Source of the DNA: Mycobacteriales bacterium
GTDB taxonomy: Bacteria; Actinomycetota; Actinomycetes; JAFAQI01
Direction: 5' to 3'
Assembly (NCBI GenBank): GCA_035504215.1
Contig: DATJSI010000036.1
Coordinates: forward strand, 62,001-126,000
Length of the DNA stretch: 64,000 bases
In this document: positions 14,517 to 26,514 of the stretch, one piece after another
Layout of the letters: each line of letters starts with the position of its first letter
Numbering within the stretch: position 1 is the stretch's first letter
Notes under the pieces: model-generated
Databases searched by the model: none
What the model was told of the DNA's origin: nothing
The model's input: the letters and a program-made list of their open reading frames with translations, nothing else
Made by a program: the position numbers and the translations under genes

Positions 14517-15812
14517 CTACGGCCTGATCGACGAGCTCGCGGTGGAGTAGCCGGCCTCATTGAAGGCGATGACGTCGTATGAGAAGCCCTTGTGCGGGTG
14601 GGACTTCGTGTACGACGGCTTGGTCGTGGTCTTGACGACCTTCCAGTGACCGCTCTTCTTGCGGTCGCGGACCTGGTAGCCGAGGATCCCGCCGCCCTTG
14701 ACCTTGGGCGTGGACCAGGTGAGGTGCAGCTTCTTCGTGGTGGCCTTGGCATGCACCGCCCGCGGCGCGCTGGGTGGGGCCATGAAGACCGCGATGCTGC
14801 CGGGATTGCTCGTCCGGTCGAGGAAAAGTCGCTCGGGGACGGCGTTGCCATGGGCGGTGGGCCCGAACCGAGCCACCTCGGAGTTCTCGGCGCTCGGCAC
14901 CCAGATGTCGCCGACTGCATCGAGCGCCTGCAGCACCGGGAGCTCGATACCGGTGTTGAATCCTGAGACGACAGTCGGCTTTGCATCCCCCCGCGCGCCC
15001 GGGGCGAACCGCAGAAGGCCGGAACTGCCCGCGACGTAGTTGACCGTGGTCGGATCGTTGCCGTCAACGCCGACCGTGATCCCGTTGGGGTCGTTCAGCT
15101 TGGTGTCGGGCCCGGAGATCTGCACGAGCGGTTTGGCGTCCCCGTGGGCGGAGCCGGCGTACTCGTTTAGTGAAGGGGTCTGGCTCCGGCTGCGGTACTC
15201 GCTGACCCAGACGCGTGTCCCCTCTGGGCTGACAGCGATTCCGGACAGGTCCGAGAGGGCGGTGTTGCTGCCGGCGATCGTGCGGATCGGGGCGACGTTG
15301 CCCTGCGCGCCGGCGCTGAATTCGACGATCGTGTTCACGCCGTCATTTGCTACCCACACGTCACCTCGCTGGGTCAGCGCCACCGCGATCGGCTGGTTCA
15401 ACCCGGTCTTGGAGCCGGCGATCGTGATGACCGGCGTCGCGTTGCCGTTGGCGTTCGCGGCAAAGACCACGATTGAGTTGGCTGAGGAGTTCGCGACCCA
15501 GAGCCGCCCCTGATGATCGATCGCCAGACCGTTCGGGTCGTCGAGCGTGGTGTTCGAGCCGCTGATGGTGGCGACCGCGGTCTGCGAGATGTTGGCGGTC
15601 GGCGGTGCGTACCGCGAGATGCTGCCGAGGAACGTCGCGGTGATCCAGAGCGTCCCGTACGCAGGCAGCCTCGCGGCCTTCTGAGGTCGAGCCGGTCGCG
15701 CATGCGCAGCGGGAGCGGATGCGACTGCCAGTGCGCCGATCAGGACGGCCACCGCTGCGCCTGAGCTTGGAATGAGACGAGAACGAAGCGACGGGGACAG
15801 ACTTCTGAGCAC
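14517..15812 (-). CDS. Secreted NHL-repeat propeller with C-terminal Fn3 domain (copy 1)
   Basis: 431 residues from GTG 15812, with GGGAG about 5 bases upstream. A signal peptide (GAAVAVLIGALAVASAPAAH) is followed by about six NHL/SMP-30-like blades, each with patterns such as LDDPNGLAIDHQGRLWVANS, LNQPIAVALTQRGDVWVAND and LNDPNGITVGVDG. From about residue 345 a fibronectin-III domain (PPSAPRAVHAKATTKKLHL to GYSTASSS) ends the protein. It is a tandem paralogue of the 15981-17291 gene, with the Fn3-coding DNA nearly identical. Extracellular binding or scaffold function is inferred; no enzyme motif is visible. Confidence 0.88.
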   Translation of the reverse strand: MLRSLSPSLRSRLIPSSGAAVAVLIGALAVASAPAAHARPARPQKAARLPAYGTLWITATFLGSISRYAPPTANISQTAVATISGSNTTLDDPNGLAIDHQGRLWVANSSANSIVVFAANANGNATPVITIAGSKTGLNQPIAVALTQRGDVWVANDGVNTIVEFSAGAQGNVAPIRTIAGSNTALSDLSGIAVSPEGTRVWVSEYRSRSQTPSLNEYAGSAHGDAKPLVQISGPDTKLNDPNGITVGVDGNDPTTVNYVAGSSGLLRFAPGARGDAKPTVVSGFNTGIELPVLQALDAVGDIWVPSAENSEVARFGPTAHGNAVPERLFLDRTSNPGSIAVFMAPPSAPRAVHAKATTKKLHLTWSTPKVKGGGILGYQVRDRKKSGHWKVVKTTTKPSYTKSHPHKGFSYDVIAFNEAGYSTASSSIRP

Positions 15813-15980: not shown

Positions 15981-17291
15981 TTAGACCTTTACCTTGAGCG
16001 ACGAGCTCGCCGTGGAGTAGCCGGCCTCGTTGAACGCGATGACGTCGTACGAGAAGCCCGTGTGCGGGTGGGACTTCGTGTACGACGGCTTGGCGGTGGT
16101 CTTGACGACCTTCCAGTGGCCGCCTTTCTTGCGGTCGCGGACCTCATAGCCGAGGATGCCGCCACCCTTCACCTTGGGAGCGGACCAGGTGAGGTGGAGC
16201 TTCTTCGAGGTGGCCTTTGCATGCATCGCCCGCGGTGCGCTCGGGGGCACGATGAACACCGCAAGGCTGCCCGGATTGTTGAGGTCGGTCCCCAGGAACA
16301 GCTTCTGCGGGGCGACGTTGCCGTGCTGTGTCGGCCCGAACCGCACGACCTCGCTGTTCTCGGGGTTCGGCACCCAGATGTTCCCGACCGCGTCGAGTCC
16401 TGGTAGCTGAGATTCCTCGAGCCCGGTGTTTTCTCCGCTGACCACGGTTCCCTTCGCGTTGCCATGAGCACCGGGCGCGAACCGCACGACCGCGGACTTC
16501 TCGTCGGTGGCAGCGTTGACGGCGATCGGGTCGGTGCCCGCGACGCCGACGACGACGCCGTTGGGTTGGTCCAGCCCGGTCTTGGAGCCGGTGATGACGG
16601 CGATCGGCTTGACGTTGCCGTGCGCGGAGCCGGAGTACTCGTCCAGCGACGGGCCGTCCTTGATGATGCGGGTCTCGCTGACCCAGACTCGTTTCCCGTC
16701 GGGGCTGACCGCGACGCCGGTCAGCTTGGCGAGCAGCGTGTTGCTGCCGGCGATCCTGCGTAGGGGCTTGGCGTCGCCATGCGAGCCGGCGGCATACTCG
16801 ACCAGCGAGTTGTCGCCGGTGTTGACCGCCCAGATGTTGCCCTTCTGGGTGAGCGCAACGTCGACCGGGGAGTTCAGGTGGGTGTCGGCGCCCGAGATGG
16901 TCACGACCGGCTTGGCGTCGCCGTTGGCGTTCGCGGCGAAGACTACGATCGAGTTGGCGGATTGGTTGGCGACCCAGAGCCGGCCCTGGTGGTCCATGGC
17001 CATGCCGCTCACGCCGTTCAGTGTGGTGTCGGCGCCCTCGATCGTGGCGATCGGATTGGGGAACCGGTTGCTGCCCGGAGGCGAGAACTCCAAGATGCTC
17101 TGGTCAGAGGGAGAACTGATCCAAAGCGTCCCGTACGCCGGCAACTTTTCCGCGGCAGGCGCGGGCCCGGCCAACCGAGCCTGCGCCGCAGGCGCCGCCG
17201 ACACGGTAAGCGCACCGGCAACGACGACAAGCGCGGCAGCACTGGGCACGCCGACGCGACGCAGCCGAGGCGCGTGCTGGTGAGCGCTCAT
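15981..17291 (-). CDS. Secreted NHL-repeat propeller with C-terminal Fn3 domain (copy 2)
   Basis: 436 residues from ATG 17291, with a GGGG-containing leader. Architecture matches the downstream paralogue: signal peptide (AALVVVAGALTVSAAPAAQA), NHL blades (LNGVSGMAMDHQGRLWVANQ, LNSPVDVALTQKGNIWAVNT, LDQPNGVVVGVAG) and an Fn3 domain ending in AGYSTASSSLKVKV. The blades of the two copies differ by many substitutions, while the final ~85 residues are nearly the same, which points to duplication followed by divergence or by gene conversion at the 3' end. 168 bp separate the genes and each has its own promoter-like element, so they are not a strict operon. Confidence 0.88.
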   Translation of the reverse strand: MSAHQHAPRLRRVGVPSAAALVVVAGALTVSAAPAAQARLAGPAPAAEKLPAYGTLWISSPSDQSILEFSPPGSNRFPNPIATIEGADTTLNGVSGMAMDHQGRLWVANQSANSIVVFAANANGDAKPVVTISGADTHLNSPVDVALTQKGNIWAVNTGDNSLVEYAAGSHGDAKPLRRIAGSNTLLAKLTGVAVSPDGKRVWVSETRIIKDGPSLDEYSGSAHGNVKPIAVITGSKTGLDQPNGVVVGVAGTDPIAVNAATDEKSAVVRFAPGAHGNAKGTVVSGENTGLEESQLPGLDAVGNIWVPNPENSEVVRFGPTQHGNVAPQKLFLGTDLNNPGSLAVFIVPPSAPRAMHAKATSKKLHLTWSAPKVKGGGILGYEVRDRKKGGHWKVVKTTAKPSYTKSHPHTGFSYDVIAFNEAGYSTASSSLKVKV

Positions 17292-17437: not shown

Positions 17438-17680
17438 ATGACGAGCCCTTCCAACGCGGAACTGATCCAGAGGGCAGCCCTCTTGCTAACCGGCGAGGGG
17501 CACACGCCATTTAGCCGGATAGAGGTATTTCGACGCATCTGGCAGCGCTACCCCGAGCGGCGGCGCCCGAGCCTCGATCCCACGTTCCAAGGGATGATCA
17601 GGAATGCTCCTGGAGGACCTCAGCCCGAACTTGGGGCGCCCCTGAGTCGCGTCGATCACGGTCTATACGTCCTGCGCTGA
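17438..17680 (+). CDS. Small DUF7669-like domain protein at island edge
   Basis: 80 residues from ATG 17438, with GAGGAGGAG immediately upstream; an in-frame upstream start at 17396 lacks a ribosome site. The protein has a helical N-terminus (NAELIQRAALLLTGEGHTPF), the core IEVFRRIWQRYPERRRPSLD and a closing LSRVDHGLYVLR. That last pattern, R-V-x-x-G-x-Y-x-L, resembles winged-helix-like DUF7669 modules found in restriction-associated proteins. The match is from memory of motif shape and is tentative. It opens the island of nuclease and helicase genes and reads in the same direction. Confidence 0.6.
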   Translation: MTSPSNAELIQRAALLLTGEGHTPFSRIEVFRRIWQRYPERRRPSLDPTFQGMIRNAPGGPQPELGAPLSRVDHGLYVLR

Positions 17681-17738
17681 TCGACTTCGAGGCGATATGC
17701 ATAACAACTGGCCGCACAGATGGCGATCTGGAAGATGA

Positions 17739-18187
17739 CCGAGGCAGGCCTTCGATGTGCCGCTTCCCGACGTGTTCAATCCCGCCCAACCGTTCATCGC
17801 GGGTGGCGGGCCCTGGTACTCGTAACCTCTCCGCAACCCGGTCGCGGGCAAGCGAATCTTCGCCTATGTAGGCGCTGCCGATGACGTCGGAGTCGGCGAG
17901 GTTATCGGAACGGCCACAGACTGCGCGATCTAGAGGTGTCTGACGCCGGCGTAGAGGTCAGGGTTGTAGACCGGCGGAGGTTGCCGAGCCCTGTCCGCGA
18001 ACGCGCAATGCCCGACGATGAGGATCAAACTGAGTACGCCGTGCCAGTGCGCTGGTTAGTGACCCGCGAACTCGACTCAGCCGTCACGGAACGTGGCCTG
18101 TTCGCCTCTCAGGTGTCGGTGTGCACGGTGCGAGACGAGCGAACCACGGATCTGGTCATTACCGCTTTCGACCTTCGAGGCGAGTAG
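17739..18187 (+). pseudogene. Decayed EVE/PUA-like domain gene
   Basis: In one frame, residues FDVPLPDVFNPAQPFIAGGG and then NPVAGKRIFAYVGAADDVGV are separated by an in-frame TAA at 17823. That frame stops again at 17932. The continuation, EYAVPVRWLVTRELDSAV followed by GLFASQVSVCTVRDERTTD, lies in a second frame (open 17936-18187). Joined, the pieces resemble EVE/PUA-like modules (RxFAYVxGxGxVGxGEVxG, then VPVxWLxTxxxxxAVxxxGLFAxQ) that read modified bases in restriction proteins. One nonsense codon plus one frameshift indicates an inactivated gene. The family assignment is by motif shape only. Confidence 0.5.
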
Positions 18188-18299
18188 CTCACTTACCTCC
18201 CGTCGAGCCCGGCCTTGTCGAAAGTTCGCTGACGCGGCACCATTCGCCGCACGAGGTCCGTGCGGGTTAGCCGGGCTACAGGCGCGCTGGAGGCGGCTG

Positions 18300-19235
18300 G
18301 TGAGGGCGTATGTCGGAGTCACCGACGCCGACTGGTACAGCTTCCTCGCCGCGCGGCCGCACATCACAGAAGTGAACTTCTGGCAGCCGAGTGGCGGACG
18401 CTCCTTTCGAATCCTTGAAACGGGGGAGCCGTTCTTCTTCAAGACGCACCATCCACACAACCGCGTTGTCGGCGGTGGATTCTTCAGCGGATTCGCCGTA
18501 CTGCCACTATCGGATGCATGGAACTTGCTCGGAGAGGCGAACGGCGCAGGAGACATTACGACGATGCGACAGAGGATAAGCCAGTATCGGAGCACTGCAA
18601 TCGCGCCGGATGAGGACCCACTGATCGGGTCGATCTTCGTTCGGGACGTGATGTTCTACCCACCGGGGCTCGAGATGGAGTCACCACCCGGGCTCGCCCG
18701 TAACGTCGTCCAGGGCAAGTCCTATCCACTCGCTGAGGAGCCGGCAGCGTCCTACTTCGACGAGGCGCTACGCAGGCTGCTTGGGCACGATCTTGATGGT
18801 GACCTCGAGCTGGCGTGGCGGCTGCCCGGACCAGTGTTCGGCGATCCTCGGCTAGCACCCCGACGGCTCGGACAGCAGGCCTTCCAGGCCGTAGTCGCGG
18901 GCGCCTACCACCGGCGGTGCGCGATCACAGGCGACCGCATCCGTCCGGTGCTGCAGGCGGCCCACATCAGACCGGTCTCGTCCGGTGGGGAGCATCGACT
19001 CGACAATGGCCTCCTGTTGCGCTCCGACGCGCACACCCTGTTTGACGCTGGCTATCTCGGCGTTGACCTGAAACACCGGCTACTAGTGAGCCCTCGGCTG
19101 CGAAGCGAGTTCGGCAACGGCGAGCAGTTCTACGCGCGTTCAGGGCGGCACATAGAACTGCCCGACCGTCGCGTAGACCGACCAGGACGTGAGTACCTGG
19201 AATGGCATCTTGACGAGAAGTTCCTTGCGTCGTAG
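18300..19235 (+). CDS. HNH endonuclease with N-terminal EVE-like domain
   Basis: 311 residues from GTG 18300, with GGAGG upstream; the open frame before it has no coding character. Residues 1-100 (AYVGVTDADWYSFLAARP, VNFWQPSGGRSF, NRVVGGGFFSGF) form a compact beta-rich domain that may be EVE/PUA-like. Residues about 200-250 carry the HNH core: YHRRCAITGDR, LQAAHIRPVSSGG with the metal His, LDNGLLLRSDAHTLFD with Asn and the second His. This is a well-populated family annotated as putative restriction endonuclease. Reader-plus-nuclease architecture suggests modification-dependent cleavage of foreign DNA. It lies 108 bp before the helicase gene, same strand. Confidence 0.88.
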   Translation: MRAYVGVTDADWYSFLAARPHITEVNFWQPSGGRSFRILETGEPFFFKTHHPHNRVVGGGFFSGFAVLPLSDAWNLLGEANGAGDITTMRQRISQYRSTAIAPDEDPLIGSIFVRDVMFYPPGLEMESPPGLARNVVQGKSYPLAEEPAASYFDEALRRLLGHDLDGDLELAWRLPGPVFGDPRLAPRRLGQQAFQAVVAGAYHRRCAITGDRIRPVLQAAHIRPVSSGGEHRLDNGLLLRSDAHTLFDAGYLGVDLKHRLLVSPRLRSEFGNGEQFYARSGRHIELPDRRVDRPGREYLEWHLDEKFLAS

Positions 19236-19343
19236 CCGTCCCGTACAGGAGATCGCCTAGGTATCGGCGTGACTTGCTCAGCTCTCGGCTGACGACGCCC
19301 GAATTCACAGTGACATCTCACGAGATAGGAGAGGCTGGCTGCC

Positions 19344-22300
19344 GTGTCAGGGCTCGAGCCAGGCGTTTACGAGACGCTCATCACTGGACGGCTCAAGCGA
19401 CTCCTATCCGACCTGGATCCGATGCTCGCTGCCGTCGTCGGTGATCTTCGCTCCTCAGACGCTGCCGACCGGCTCGCGCGGCACGTCGCGGGCCTCATAC
19501 GAGACGCCATCGACGCGCTGGCCGAGGAAGAGCGAGTGGCGGCCGCTACCGAGCTCGTGAGCGACGTCCTCGTTCGTCTCGCTGAGCGATCGGAGGGTGA
19601 GTTTGGGGGACCGCTGGATCAGCTCGTTGGGAAGGGTGAGGTTCTCGGTGAAGTTGCTCGCCTGAAACCTGATGGCTCAGCAACCCACCTGGAGCGACCT
19701 CTTACACCGTTGCTTGACACAACCATCCTGACCAACTCGCACGGCGAGCCGCAGGTCGCTCGTGAGTTGGTTGCAGAGTGCAGGTCGGCGAACCGAATCG
19801 ATGCACTTGTTGCGTTCGTCCGTTGGAGCGGTATCCGAACAATGCTCGATGCCCTTCGGGAGGCTCTGGAGCAGGGTCGGCGCGTGCGGCTGCTGACAAC
19901 GACGTACACCAACTCAACCGAGCCTCGCGCCTTGGACGCGCTCACGGCGCTTGGCGCGGAGGTGAAGGTCTCTTACGACACATCGTTGACGCGGCTGCAC
20001 GCGAAGGCGTGGTTATTTCATCGCGCGAGCGGCTATTCAACCGCGTACATCGGCTCCTCCAACCTGACCTTCGCCGCGCAACAGACAGGTCTCGAGTGGA
20101 ACGTGCGGGTTTCCGGCGCCCGGAATCCGGACGTTGTGGAGAAGATGACGGCTGTCTTCGATAGCTACTGGCAGAACGGGGACTTTGTCCCGTACGACCG
20201 GGACGAGTTTCTAGGACGTACGAGGCTCGAAAAGCAGGGTGCACTCCCGCTTCCGGGTGTCGAGCTGGTTCTCCGACCGTTCCAAGAGCAGCTGCTCGAG
20301 CAACTTGAGCTCGCCCGATCCCGCGGGCACCACCGAAACCTCGTGGTTGCAGCGACCGGTACTGGAAAGACGGTTATGGCGGCAGTGGACTACGCGCGGC
20401 TACGCCGCAGAATGCCGAGGGCACGGCTGCTGTTCGTTGCCCATCGCGATGAGATCCTCGGGCAAAGCCGCGCGACCTTCGCGCTCGCGCTACGCGATGC
20501 AAGTTTCGGCGAGCGTTGGGTCGGTGGCGATCGCCCAGAGCGCTTTGAGCACGTGTTTGCGTCAATCCAGAGCCTTCACGCAGCTGGCCTCGCGCACCTG
20601 CCACCCGACCACTTCGATGTGGTGATCGTTGACGAGTTCCACCATGCGGCGGCTCAGTCGTACCAGACGCTGCTTCGACACTTGCAGCCGAAGCAGCTTC
20701 TAGGCTTGACCGCGACCCCGGAACGTGCTGACGGTTTGGACGTTCTGAGTTTCTTCGACGGCCGGATCGCCGCCGAGCTGCGGCTCTGGGACGCGATCGA
20801 TCAACAGCATCTGTGTCCGTTCGACTATTTCGGCGCATTCGATGGTGCGGATCTCAGCCACGTGACATGGCGCAGGGGACAGGGTTATGACGCCTCGGAG
20901 CTGTCCAACCTCCTGACAGCCGATGATGTGTGGGCTAACCGAGTGATCGCGCAGGTCGATTCGACCGTGGCAGACCCCAAGCGTATGCGGGCTCTAGGGT
21001 TCTGCGTCGGCGTTGGTCATGCGACCTTCATGGCAGATCGGTTCAACGCGGCGGGGATTCCGGCTGTTGCGATCTCCGGACAGTCCTCGACTGAGGAGCG
21101 TCGTAAGGCACTGATAGACCTCCGAGATGGCCGTGTAGCGGTGGTCTTCACCGTTGACCTCTTCAACGAAGGCGTCGACCTGCCCACCATTGACACCTTG
21201 CTGATGCTTCGGCCGACCGACAGTGCAACGTTGTTCCTCCAGCAGCTCGGTCGCGGTCTGCGCAAGGCGATCGACAAGCCTGTCTGTACTGTCCTCGACT
21301 TCGTCTCGCTTCACCACAAGGAGTTTCGCTATGACCGTCGCTACATTGCGCTGGTCGGCGGCTCGCGCCGTTCGCTCGTGCAACAGGTCGAGTCCGGATT
21401 CCCGTTCTTGCCCGCGGGTTGTCAGATAACTCTCGATCGGGTTGCGCGCGACGTCGTCCTCAAGAGTATTAGAGAGTCCATCCCGAGCAGATGGCGGGAG
21501 AAATGCGAGGAGCTCAGGGCGATAGGCGATGTCAGCCTCTCCCGGTACATCGAGGAGTCCGGGCTCGACCTCGAGGACGTCTACGACAACGGTCACAGCT
21601 GGGGCGAAATAAGGCGGGCAGCCGGCTTCGAGCGTGGTGTGAAGACGCCGGAGGAGTTGGCCATGCTGCGTGCGGTGGGACGACTTGCTCATGTCGATGA
21701 CAACGAACGGATTCGCACGTACCAACGTTTGGCTGCAAGCCCAATACCGCCTGACCTGACCGACCTATCACTGCGGGAGCGCCGCCTCTTTCGCATGCTG
21801 CTGGCTTCAGTCACGACGCTGCCAAAGTCCTCGCCGATCGCGGCAGGTGCTGCGCAACTGTGGGCCAATCCCGTCGTGCGGAGCGAACTCGGCGAGCTGC
21901 TTTCCGTCCTGGAAGACCGGATCACACATGTCACCACGGCTCTCGAGCCCGCCGGAGCAGTGCCGTTGCAGGTGCACGCGCGCTACACCCGGGTCGAGGT
22001 TCTCTCGGCGCTCGGCTACGGCGACGGACTCAAGCCTATGACCTGGCAGACCGGCGTGCTCTGGGATGAAGACAACAGGACAGACCTGTTTGCCTTCACG
22101 TTGGACAAGAGCAGTGGTGGCTTCTCGCCATCCACGCGCTATAGGGACTACGCGATTAGCCGGGATCTCATTCATTGGGAGAGCCAGTCGACGACATCGG
22201 AAGCAGGGGAGGTGGGCCAGCGCTACATACATCACCGCGCCCGGGGCACTCGCATCCTCCTGTTCGCCCGACTGAACTCGAACGAACGCGCCTTCTGGTG

Positions 22301-22418
22301 CCTTGGACCCGCGACATACGTTAGTCACCAAGGCGAGCGGCCGATCTCGTTCACCTGGCGCCTTGAACACGCCCTCCCCGCGGACCTCTATATGGCCTTC
22401 GCTGCCGCCGTTGCGTGA
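19344..22418 (+). CDS. PLD-nuclease / SF2 helicase / DUF3427 protein
   Basis: 1024 residues from GTG 19344 (GGAGAGG about 10 bases upstream). Order of parts: helical N-terminus; phospholipase-D-like domain about 120-290 with LHAKAWLFHR near 217 and AYIGSSNLTFAAQ after it; SF2 helicase core with AATGTGKTVMAAVDYARL (Walker A, about 335), VDEFHHAAA (DExH, about 429), LGLTATPERADG (motif III, about 455) and LGRGLRKA (motif VI, about 632); C-terminal DUF3427-like region about 840-1024 (GYGDGLKPMTWQTGVLW). Only one HxK motif is visible, so an active PLD site would need dimerisation. Such proteins are thought to degrade or unwind invading DNA. Codons are less GC-biased than in neighbouring genes. 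Confidence 0.93.
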   Translation: MSGLEPGVYETLITGRLKRLLSDLDPMLAAVVGDLRSSDAADRLARHVAGLIRDAIDALAEEERVAAATELVSDVLVRLAERSEGEFGGPLDQLVGKGEVLGEVARLKPDGSATHLERPLTPLLDTTILTNSHGEPQVARELVAECRSANRIDALVAFVRWSGIRTMLDALREALEQGRRVRLLTTTYTNSTEPRALDALTALGAEVKVSYDTSLTRLHAKAWLFHRASGYSTAYIGSSNLTFAAQQTGLEWNVRVSGARNPDVVEKMTAVFDSYWQNGDFVPYDRDEFLGRTRLEKQGALPLPGVELVLRPFQEQLLEQLELARSRGHHRNLVVAATGTGKTVMAAVDYARLRRRMPRARLLFVAHRDEILGQSRATFALALRDASFGERWVGGDRPERFEHVFASIQSLHAAGLAHLPPDHFDVVIVDEFHHAAAQSYQTLLRHLQPKQLLGLTATPERADGLDVLSFFDGRIAAELRLWDAIDQQHLCPFDYFGAFDGADLSHVTWRRGQGYDASELSNLLTADDVWANRVIAQVDSTVADPKRMRALGFCVGVGHATFMADRFNAAGIPAVAISGQSSTEERRKALIDLRDGRVAVVFTVDLFNEGVDLPTIDTLLMLRPTDSATLFLQQLGRGLRKAIDKPVCTVLDFVSLHHKEFRYDRRYIALVGGSRRSLVQQVESGFPFLPAGCQITLDRVARDVVLKSIRESIPSRWREKCEELRAIGDVSLSRYIEESGLDLEDVYDNGHSWGEIRRAAGFERGVKTPEELAMLRAVGRLAHVDDNERIRTYQRLAASPIPPDLTDLSLRERRLFRMLLASVTTLPKSSPIAAGAAQLWANPVVRSELGELLSVLEDRITHVTTALEPAGAVPLQVHARYTRVEVLSALGYGDGLKPMTWQTGVLWDEDNRTDLFAFTLDKSSGGFSPSTRYRDYAISRDLIHWESQSTTSEAGEVGQRYIHHRARGTRILLFARLNSNERAFWCLGPATYVSHQGERPISFTWRLEHALPADLYMAFAAAVA

Positions 22419-22670
22419 TGTCGCGTGCCGAGGCACGCAACCCCTGCCACCCCCTGTGCCGGAGCTCGTGTCGAGTCCCACCGATGACCTGCAGCTGCTC
22501 TCGCTCATGAAGGAGATCCGCAAGACCTTCGCGTCTTAGGCGAATCAGTGCGCAGCCGGCTGCTCGACGGCGGGGCCAAATGCGGCGGCATCACGCCGTG
22601 CCCCAGGGGATGTCAAGACCGACCGCAGAGTTGCCGATTCACATGGTGCGTGCGGAAAGGAAACAGCCAG

Positions 22671-23252
22671 ATGACCACGTCCATCGGCGGTCCGGGACCC
22701 GAAGCACCATCACGAACCCCGAACCCGCGAGATGAGCAACCAGGCCGAGGTACGCCGGCCGGTCGTCGGACCCGCGCGCAGAAGAGGCGATGGGCTGAGT
22801 GGAATCGCAAGCTCCAGTCACCGCCGCCGTCGGCACCAGCGCATGCGACCCGCGCGCCCAACGCCACTTGGCAGGCCCCTCCCGCGTGGTACCCGGATCC
22901 GTGCGACCCTCGCCAGTTGAGATGGTGGGACGGCGTTCAATGGACCGAGGCGGTTCAGTGGTCCATGCACGTCGCGGCTCCCCCACAGGTCGCAGTTGAC
23001 GACGTGGCGGGCGTGGGCGTGTTCGGGGTCAACGGGTTTGCGGTGGCGTCGTTCGTATTGTCGCTGCTGTGGCTGTTCTGGATCGGTTCTCTTCTTGGTA
23101 CGGTCTTTGGCTTCGTGGCCCTCAGTCAGTTCCGGAACGCCGGAGACAAGAAACGCGGGCGGGGCCTGGCTATCGCGGGCACGGTGCTCGGCGTTGTGGG
23201 ATTGCTCATCTTCGTCGCGGCGCTCGTCGGCGGTGCTCGGCGCGGAAGCTAG
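22671..23252 (+). CDS. DUF2510-DUF4190 membrane protein
   Basis: 193 residues from ATG 22671, with GGAAAGGA about 9 bases upstream. A Pro-rich, charged N-terminus leads to the DUF2510 motif WYPDPCDPRQLRWWDG near residue 75, a short beta module common in actinobacterial envelope proteins. Two transmembrane helices follow (FAVASFVLSLLWLFWIGSLL and GLAIAGTVLGVVGLLIFVAA) with the DUF4190 loop FGFVALSQFRNAGDKKRGRG between them. Function is unknown; a membrane tether or envelope stress role is possible. The 252 bp before it hold no convincing gene, only a possible degraded 3' end near 22450-22539. Confidence 0.85.
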   Translation: MTTSIGGPGPEAPSRTPNPRDEQPGRGTPAGRRTRAQKRRWAEWNRKLQSPPPSAPAHATRAPNATWQAPPAWYPDPCDPRQLRWWDGVQWTEAVQWSMHVAAPPQVAVDDVAGVGVFGVNGFAVASFVLSLLWLFWIGSLLGTVFGFVALSQFRNAGDKKRGRGLAIAGTVLGVVGLLIFVAALVGGARRGS

Positions 23253-23426
23253 CCAAGGTTCGGTGCGGCAACACTCCGAGCCCTAGGCCGAGCCGCGACC
23301 GTTGGTTGGATCGGAGCACTGGCGGCACCGATACCTTCTGAGTCGCTGCCCATCTCCTCACGGGTCGGCGCGGCTCAACACCAGGCTCGCGCAAGCCGAT
23401 GACCAGAGGGCGGTCTGAAGGAGCGG

Positions 23427-24524
23427 GTGCCCCTATCAGGTTCCGCCGCTGCGTTGGGTCGACCGATAGGAGAAGCACTGTTGGCGCTTGCAGCGATTTC
23501 GAGCCGCCGCCGGAGATCTGCACTCGCGTCAGACGCGAGAGCAGGTCGCTATTCACGTTGGCGCTACCGCCGAGAGACGCGGTCATACCTTCGCGAGTAC
23601 TGGCCGTCTCTTGCTCGGGCGTCATGGCCGCCTTTCCTTGCGGTGGGAGCAGCGGCCGCTGTCGCTCGTGACCCGCTCGTTCGCGGCCTTCTCGTTGGCG
23701 CGGGTGTCACAGCCACGGCGTCCGCAATCATGATGTGGATCGTCCTCGACTCTGGCGTCGGGCCTCGCTACATGGGGGAGGTTGCCGAGCAGCGAACGGC
23801 CGCTGAGCTGCGGCGCATAAAGGGCGCACGTCTCGTCAACCACTTTGGTCTCGATGGTGGTGATGTTGACCATTTGCTCGTCGGAGCCGCCGGAGTCTTC
23901 GTCGTCGAAACGAAATGGTCAGCGAGCGATTGGAAACGTGGTCGCATCGATGTACGGCGCCTTGAGACGGCCAGGGTCGAAGCAGTGGGCGTCGCCAAGA
24001 AGCTCGCGCTGTGGGAGCCGTACAAACGGCTTGGGTTGCCCGCGCCACACGCCGTCGTTGCACTGTGGGGCCCTGGAGCGGAGGAACTGACCGCTCAACT
24101 TGGTACGTCCGATGTCGTTGCCGGGTCGCAGCTCCGATCTCGACTAGAGGGTTTCGGCATGCTCGTCCGAACGCTGACGCCTGATCAGATTGATGCGGTC
24201 TGGCGGGTGCTCAGCGATCACCTCGTGGGCCGTGACCGTGAAGAGCGAGCGGCGCGGCCAATGCCCCCCTCGATCGCAGGTCTGGGAGCGCGCGTGCTCG
24301 TCGGCACCCTGGCTGGGTTAGTCGGGTTCCTAGGTGCTGCAGGAGGTACGAGCCTTCCCCTTCCGCTTTGGGCGTGGGCAATCGCAGTGTGCGCCACGGC
24401 GTGCGCCGCGGCGCCCGTGCGTCACTGGGCGCGCTTGCGCATCGCAGTCTCAGGTTTGTGGGCCGGCCTTGCCGTCGCCCTGAGTCTGGCTGCAGTCTCA
24501 GCTGGCGGCCAGCTTCTGCGTTAG
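23427..24524 (+). CDS. NERD-domain membrane protein
   Basis: 365 residues from GTG 23427 (GGAG just upstream). Two hydrophobic stretches near residues 68-110 are followed by a NERD nuclease-related domain: EVAEQRTAAELRRI, then DVDHLLVGAAGVFVVETKWS near 145-165, with the conserved Asp and the Glu-x-Lys of the PD-(D/E)xK-like fold. The C-terminal 90 residues hold further transmembrane helices (LGARVLVGTLAGLVGFLGAA and following). A membrane-tethered nuclease-like protein is the straightforward reading. It is the fourth intact nuclease- or helicase-associated gene in this stretch and converges on another NERD gene. Confidence 0.85.
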   Translation: MPLSGSAAALGRPIGEALLALAAISSRRRRSALASDARAGRYSRWRYRRETRSYLREYWPSLARASWPPFLAVGAAAAVARDPLVRGLLVGAGVTATASAIMMWIVLDSGVGPRYMGEVAEQRTAAELRRIKGARLVNHFGLDGGDVDHLLVGAAGVFVVETKWSASDWKRGRIDVRRLETARVEAVGVAKKLALWEPYKRLGLPAPHAVVALWGPGAEELTAQLGTSDVVAGSQLRSRLEGFGMLVRTLTPDQIDAVWRVLSDHLVGRDREERAARPMPPSIAGLGARVLVGTLAGLVGFLGAAGGTSLPLPLWAWAIAVCATACAAAPVRHWARLRIAVSGLWAGLAVALSLAAVSAGGQLLR

Positions 24525-25474: not shown

Positions 25475-25672
25475 ACGTCCATGTCGGGCACTGAATCGCT
25501 CTGCTATAGCCGAACCGGTCGATACCACCCAGATGCCGTAGCGAGGCTCATGGCAGCCCGCGCCGGAAGGTGGCAGGCCGCCGAGCCGTGAAAGCGCGGA
25601 AATTGGCGTGCGTGCCGACGAGCGCGTTGCCATACTCCGGCGGCTGATTTTCTTTGAAGGGAGGTGACAGCC

Positions 25673-26146
25673 ATGAAGCTGGCAGAGGCACTCGCGCTGC
25701 GGTCCGACGCGGTCAAGCGCGTCGAGCAGCTGCGTGCGCGGGTGCAGACGAACGCCCGCTACCAGGAGGGTGAGGAGCCGACCGAGGACGCCAACGCGCT
25801 GCTCGCGGAGGCCGGCCGGGTGCTCGACCAACTCGAGGACCTGATCCGCCGGGTCAACCGCACCAACGCGACCGCGACGGTCGAGGACGGCATGACGCTC
25901 ACCGACGCGCTCGCGCGTCGCGACGTGCTCCGGCTGCGGCACGCGTTCTGGAGCCGCGCCGCCGACGCGGCGTCCGGGCGCGAGTCGAGCTCCGGCGGGT
26001 TCCGGCAGCTTCGTTCCGAGCTGCGCACGCTTCCGGCGCTCCCGGTCCGCGAGCTGCGTACGGCGGTCGACGAGCTGGCTCGCGAGCACCGCGAGCTCGA
26101 CGTCAAGATCCAGCGGGCCAACTGGCAGGCGGATCTCGTCGACTGA
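25673..26146 (+). CDS. DIP1984 (septicolysin-like) family protein
   Basis: 157 residues from ATG 25673, with GGGAGG about 10 bases upstream. The whole length is helical and charged: MKLAEALALRSDAVKRVEQL, GEEPTEDANALLAEAGRVLD, INRTN-like IRRVNRTNATATVEDGMTLT, and LARRDVLRLRHAFWSRAADA. These match the conserved blocks of the DIP1984 family, cytoplasmic proteins of unknown function. It is divergent from the NERD gene and ends at an intergenic region carrying the 31-bp repeat array. Confidence 0.88.
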   Translation: MKLAEALALRSDAVKRVEQLRARVQTNARYQEGEEPTEDANALLAEAGRVLDQLEDLIRRVNRTNATATVEDGMTLTDALARRDVLRLRHAFWSRAADAASGRESSSGGFRQLRSELRTLPALPVRELRTAVDELAREHRELDVKIQRANWQADLVD

Positions 26147-26514
26147 GTGAAGGCAACCGCATGAGTCGGTAGCCGTCGATCGAGAAGTGAACACCGAACC
26201 GCTCTTGCGCCGGCGGTTAACTCACGGCGCAACCTGGCGCGCGATGGGCAGCGCAATCGGTTCAACTCCGGACCCACAGGGCAGCCCAGTACGGCGTACC
26301 GGGGACAGGGCAAGGCGCACGACGCACTACCTGGTGTTGGTCTCGATCGACGGTGAGGGTGGGTCAGGGGACTGCGGTTGCTCCACTCGAGAGACGTACA
26401 ACCCCCACGCATGGCCCATACGTGGTGCCATAGCCCCACCGATGGGCCATGCGTGGGGCCACAGCACCACCGATGGGCCATGCGTGCGACGCGGCTAGGG
26501 GCCGATCGGCTGGG
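26147..26514. other. Gene-free convergent junction holding a repeat array
   Basis: 368 bp between the 3' ends of the DIP1984 and hemerythrin genes. The only structure seen is the palindromic array at 26407-26485; the first 250 bp show no coding frame with a ribosome site. Confidence 0.6.
26407..26485. repeat. REP-like array, family A: one inverted plus two direct units
   Basis: ACGCATGGCCCAT (26407-26419) is followed by its exact complement ATGGGCCATGCGT at 26442-26454 and again at 26473-26485, a 31-bp period. The first two units form a 48-nt hairpin. The same arrangement recurs at 37774-37914. It lies between converging genes. Confidence 0.85.

Follow-up and report, generated by a model that had tools for sequence, protein, structure and literature searches.

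The window (the whole stretch of DNA analysed, 64,000 nucleotides) comes from a draft genome of 150 contigs and 3.47 Mb that is 96% complete, and it holds at 17438-24524 a plus-strand segment encoding, in order, a DUF7669 protein, a broken EVE-like gene, an HNH endonuclease, a 1024-residue protein with PLD, SF2 and DUF3427 domains, a DUF2510/DUF4190 protein and a NERD protein (Table 1). Loci common to the class sample and to named records suggest that the class of this genome is Actinomycetes. The first-pass annotation had listed the DUF7669, HNH, 1024-residue PLD/SF2 and membrane NERD proteins as lying in one direction, and Pfam recovered all of them there. It had also described their codons as less GC-rich than those of the flanks, as they are: GC3 is 0.72, 0.72, 0.78 and 0.66 in the four main genes of the segment vs a mean of 0.87 in most other window genes, a foreign composition. 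The segment was probably acquired horizontally and is probably partly decayed. Among the window's main genes, PADLOC added to the two restriction enzymes discussed below mad2/mad3 matches alone, so the proposed defence island stands as two restriction enzymes in a small cluster rather than as a large island. A promoter and terminator scan returned signals no more than chance, and an Rfam scan returned a tRNA and nothing else.

Table 1. Features of the plus-strand segment, with window coordinates and supporting evidence.
Feature	Position	Strand	Evidence
Small DUF7669-domain protein, 80 aa	17438..17680, ATG 17438	+	PF24706 E 7.9e-9
Pseudogene, remnant of the EVE-like C-terminal half of a ~350-370 aa protein	17799..18187	+	tblastn of intact relatives
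HNH endonuclease of 311 aa with predicted PUA-superfamily (ASCH/EVE-like) reader	18300..19235	+	PF13391 E 1.5e-11, AlphaFold/Foldseek
Predicted base-reader domain, aa 1-162	18300..18785	+	AlphaFold, Foldseek
HNH nuclease domain, aa 190-311	18867..19232	+	Alignment with VcaM4I
SauUSI-type type IV restriction enzyme, 1024 aa: PLD, SF2 translocase, coupler, DUF3427 SRA-like	19344..22418	+	Pfam, PADLOC, 7clg profile
PLD nuclease domain, aa 165-276; H219-x-K221, GSSN 237-240	19836..20171	+	PF13091
SF2 ATPase, aa 308-660	20265..21323	+	PF04851, PF00271
DUF3427/SRA-like target recognition domain, aa 841-1019	21864..22400	+	PF11907
DUF2510-DUF4190 membrane protein, between helicase and NERD	about 22671..23252	+	PF13828 E 5e-16, PF10708
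Membrane NERD-domain protein, hydrophobic segments	23427..24524	+	PF08378 E 6.1e-7

Around the two enzymes lie several smaller features. The frame of the DUF7669 gene is open from GTG 17396; the domain matched in 2 of 148 class genomes, the window's own included, and none lay near the best 80 of 447 HNH loci, an absence of association in both samples for which we dropped the protein as a partner. The pieces of the EVE-like gene (about 17799-17918 and 18014-18184) lie in two frames, with an in-frame stop inside the first, and align by tblastn with the C-terminal half of a single family of intact proteins, about 350-370 aa long, from related genomes (L230-L236; 36-49% identity, E to 3e-14). The decayed gene reported by the first-pass annotation is thus a real pseudogene, while its EVE-like character is a resemblance seen by eye, with zero Pfam matches on the pieces. 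Three genomes (G109:C106; G063:C1 3264617-3267437; G001:C8 127203-129520) have an SF2 helicase frame of about 1120-1170 aa some 1-2 kb away from the intact relative, which may be a recurrent pair. The DUF2510-DUF4190 protein is an uncertain member of the cluster, and a relative of the NERD protein also occurs two genes past the helicase in L075/L156. On the right flank, a second NERD-domain protein runs on the minus strand from 24650 to about 25600 (PF08378 E 5.2e-16); its true start lies further in, since the frame extends a long way upstream, into a convincing DUF6847 gene on the opposite strand (25664-26146). Between the DUF6847 gene and a hemerythrin gene sits a 40-nt inverted repeat (26403-26486; 83% complementary, 1-nt spacer) that overlaps a 31-nt tandem repeat. 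Directly upstream of the segment, on the minus strand, tandem paralogues (14517-15752 and 15981-17291) carry NHL repeats and a C-terminal fn3 domain and are probably secreted.

The 1024-residue protein belongs securely to the SauUSI-type family, its exact base specificity being less than secure. PLD, SF2 ATPase and DUF3427/SRA-like domains all reside in a single polypeptide (Pfam; 7clg profile), whereas CglI and NgoAVII, which likewise combine a PLD nuclease with an SF2 helicase, place them in separate subunits (PMC7913695). The PADLOC model mREase_IV (type IV methyl-directed restriction enzyme) matches aa 115-1021 at E 5.6e-265, in agreement with the restriction function first suggested for the locus, and the protein is nearer to PDLC03659 than to PDLC03658, the latter having the length of SauUSI. 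By sequence, 7clg is the best solved relative and the sole one matching beyond the helicase core; from length, name and match, it is taken to be the published SauUSI structure (PMC7913695), that of a Staphylococcus aureus type IV enzyme. A family profile built from 15 sequences aligns with it over almost full length (E 5.9e-130, profile 115-1002 on chain 29-920), leaving about 100 additional N-terminal residues in the window protein. SauUSI combines a PLD dimer and an SF2 motor with a coupler and an SRA-fold domain at its C-terminus; it reads S(5mC)NGS, translocates and shreds DNA, and is active as a lone polypeptide (PMC7913695, PMC3874153).

The two proteins share their domain order, the PLD His and Lys, and the Asp and Trp of the base pocket. 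Specifically, the HxK of the window protein, H219-A-K221, corresponds to SauUSI H119/K121, with the His invariant in 15 relatives and the Lys kept in all but one, and D935 and W945, both invariant in the family, correspond to the pocket residues D858 and W868. The SF2 motifs are GTGKT (339-343), DEFH (430-433), TATPER (456-461) and QQLGRGLR (633-640). Missing is the Glu of the H(x)K(x)4E motif, which was described for SauUSI and is not established as family-defining: Glu126 falls on His226, a position where most members of the clade have Arg or His. Further, an invariant Val905 takes the place of the methyl-contacting Tyr831, and because of these two replacements 5mC recognition by the helicase is not assured. 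RadD, XPB and a type I R subunit were set aside as identities, their matches being far weaker than those to SauUSI-type proteins, and a plasmid DNA search gave short matches only, several of them inside helicase genes.

For the HNH gene, we moved the start from 18093 to GTG 18300 because relatives begin at the equivalent position, opening with M(K/R)AYVGVTD; the 69 codons from 18093 traverse the pseudogene in another frame and lie outside the HNH protein. The AlphaFold model, computed from 61 sequences in place of a 16-sequence model of pLDDT 57, has a pLDDT of 83.8 overall and about 90 across aa 1-160. Together with the Foldseek matches, it predicts that the N-terminal half adopts a PUA-superfamily fold, ASCH- or EVE-like, in line with the modified-base-reading N-terminus that had been proposed. 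No Pfam, NCBIfam or PADLOC model matched this half. Among the 61 relatives, Pfam HNH_2 was found in all and Pfam EVE in none. With the whole model, Foldseek placed VcaM4I best (E 9.4e-8), with ASCH domains from 6e-5 and TagI at 1.9e-4; with the reader domain taken alone, the match was nearer to ASCH than to EVE, and a late sixth strand, a candidate for the one that EVE domains place beside strand 1, is predicted at aa 139-143. A profile search with the family likewise returned VcaM4I (3.3e-14) and TagI (0.0034), sequence searches detecting the HNH half alone.

VcaM4I (PDB 6yex), an EVE-HNH enzyme, also has an N-terminal PUA-superfamily reader and a C-terminal HNH domain in about 310 aa, with the active-site quartet in register: H222, N236, H245 and D249 align with VcaM4I H224, N241, D250 and D254 (active site from PMC7897488), and these columns are invariant across the 61 relatives. 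It differs in having D250 where the window protein has H245, in a sequence match limited to the HNH half, and in a reader that is EVE where ours, taken alone, is nearer ASCH. The full HNH model superposes poorly on it (TM 0.27), so a shared domain arrangement is putative. TagI, ScoMcrA and PT-DNA_restrict similarly place an HNH nuclease behind a modification reader; unlike that of the window protein, their readers are SRA or sulfur-binding domains. An assignment to the PT-dependent SBD-HNH proteins was rejected, the window protein scoring 68.9 bits against an NF045808 cut-off of 180, over the HNH part only. EVE-HNH enzymes are already known (PMC7897488, PMC7641849) and a REase-ASCH fusion is on record (PMC10853773); the term ASCH-HNH was not met in the literature searched. 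The HNH protein is probably an NTP-independent modification-dependent restriction enzyme, and the modest new element is an ASCH/EVE-like reader without a domain model, carried by HNH proteins that are widespread and repeatedly neighbour other type IV enzymes.

Cleavage by SauUSI-type enzymes depends on ATP and on 5mC/5hmC, and an enzyme that depends on 5mC is expected to be scarce in hosts that have C5-methyltransferases. The window's genome gave no match to PF00145, a search to which 10 of 14 control genomes responded. Strong matches (E<1e-30) occurred in 11 of 53 carriers of a SauUSI-type protein (21%) vs 152 of 342 other genomes (44%; P 9e-4, phylogeny ignored); at E<1e-3, the difference was not significant (P 0.11, phylogeny again ignored), and within one family the depletion had P 0.003-0.06, depending on unseen genomes, and is suggestive only. 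HNH carriers showed no depletion, 8 of 16 having a strong PF00145 match. These results provisionally support a helicase that reads cytosine-5 marks and suggest, also provisionally, an HNH protein that recognises another mark or a more restricted context; given that helicase carriers are depleted in C5-methyltransferases and HNH carriers are not, the two enzymes may read different marks.

We consider it likely that the locus holds two type IV (modification-dependent) restriction enzymes, each complete in itself, adjacent on a small, probably acquired and partly decayed segment. Each gene appears to encode a reader and a nuclease of its own, and each enzyme is probably sufficient alone. By analogy with SauUSI, its homologue would form a PLD-linked dimer in which a modified cytosine, flipped out by the SRA-like domain at the C-terminus, switches on the SF2 motor, whereupon translocating molecules would pile up and the PLD site would shred the DNA. 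The HNH protein would work without ATP, its N-terminal PUA-superfamily domain flipping and checking a modified base and its C-terminal HNH domain cutting nearby, as in VcaM4I and TagI. The two would not be subunits of one machine; their shared neighbourhood could reflect the tendency of such genes to gather in defence islands, where two readers may widen the range of modified phages attacked.

The first-pass annotation had instead suggested one two-gene system that recognises, unwinds and cuts foreign DNA; on such a reading the HNH protein would recognise modified DNA and recruit the helicase, which would unwind or translocate and shred it. In the window the two genes run in the same direction, 108 bp apart, and the adjacency is real yet not conserved: the helicase adjoins 3 of the best 80 of 447 HNH loci (L156, L177, L181), as against about 0.004 expected by chance assuming about 5000 genes per genome, a roughly 700-fold excess, but an HNH orthologue adjoins only 1 of 52 other helicase loci. 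That locus is again L156, which repeats the order HNH-helicase-x-NERD of the window, while the two genes are divergent in L177 (Segeticoccus) and the HNH gene lies downstream in L181 (Nostocoides). In a quick helicase tree (SH-aLRT support only), pairing at the four loci takes four separate changes to explain, that is, four independent pairings in three gene orders. These at least four assemblies of the pair, and the shared direction and 108 bp gap of the window genes, are what one would expect were joint action sometimes favoured. However, 77 of these 80 HNH loci lack the partner next door, as do 51 of the 52 helicase loci; the pairing is thus rare elsewhere, an outcome that the first-pass annotation had named beforehand as counting against its proposal. 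Further, among 395 class genomes, 16 with a full HNH protein and 53 with a near-full-length SauUSI-type protein, the helicase occurred in 2 of 16 HNH carriers vs 51 of 379 others (13%), which is chance level, the genes being adjacent in both genomes that carry the two. With orientation variable, a reader and nuclease in each protein, and SauUSI working alone (PMC3874153), we discard the two-gene system as very unlikely and retain from that claim a looser clustering with at least four origins. Independent enzymes that share islands would show this pattern. Further type IV or sulfur-reading enzymes (GmrSD, Mrr, PT-DNA HNH) are found close to relatives of both genes, MazG-like and SLFN-group-3 helicase genes close to those of the HNH gene, and HNH nucleases with a sulfur-binding-type N-terminus occur beside or near other SauUSI-type genes (L106, L063). 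Phosphorothioation genes are reported to have both PLD(HKD)-SF2 nucleases and reader-HNH nucleases as recurrent neighbours (PMC10853773); dndC had no match in the window's genome.

Two other readings bear on the enzymes taken singly. The HNH protein could be an ordinary or regulatory nuclease, with RNA or unmodified DNA as the ligand of its ASCH-like domain, since the domain alone is closest to ASCH proteins, one of them (Zymomonas) with RNase activity, and matches more weakly YqfB, an ac4C amidohydrolase (PMC7641849, PMC12707154), and since the reading of DNA modifications by ASCH domains is predicted and largely unproven (PMC11037411). The protein as a whole, though, has its best match in VcaM4I, a PUA-HNH enzyme whose cutting depends on 5mC/5hmC, and relatives of the window protein sit near GmrSD, Mrr and SauUSI-type enzymes, so that we regard this reading as unlikely. 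The segment might also be a decaying remnant in which neither enzyme functions in this strain, as the broken EVE-like gene, the isolated DUF7669 protein and the GC3 below that of the flanks would allow; both enzymes are nevertheless full length with intact catalytic motifs, and the host lacks a cytosine-5 methyltransferase match, a condition for carrying an active 5mC-dependent enzyme, which makes such inactivity quite improbable.

On the preferred reading of two separate enzymes, what was a vague candidate defence island is narrowed to two specific, testable ones. The SauUSI homologue would bar transformation of this host with methylated DNA. If confirmed, the HNH family would add an ASCH-type reader, a role so far predicted, to the domains that direct the cutting of modified DNA, and could become a tool to detect a DNA modification. 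Going further, we tentatively entertain, at somewhat less than even chances, that the ASCH/EVE-like-HNH proteins form an undescribed modification-dependent family that reads a non-5mC mark and is repeatedly paired with SauUSI-type enzymes, the complementary readers serving against differently modified phages.

The HNH family extends well beyond this locus. A GTDB scan confirmed 447 related stretches, and relatives also occur on viral contigs and a few plasmids, plasmid and phage protein searches giving mostly HNH-domain-only matches. Relatives on IMG/VR contigs classed as viral (L212-L218) share 38-41% identity, mostly over full length, with no SauUSI-type gene nearby in the available contig DNA. 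MazG-like and SLFN-group-3 helicase genes seem to recur together on both the helicase side (L064, L066, L090, L109) and the HNH side (L131, L199), the Pfam assignment being made on representatives from the HNH side only. In three genomes (L142, L150, L205), a small protein of 102-175 aa with no Pfam match adjoins the HNH relative and, by eye, resembles an EVE-type domain. Finally, tandem copies of the HNH family in MAGs of Acidimicrobiaceae and other actinomycetes (L184, L187, L188) suggest local duplication of the reader-nuclease.
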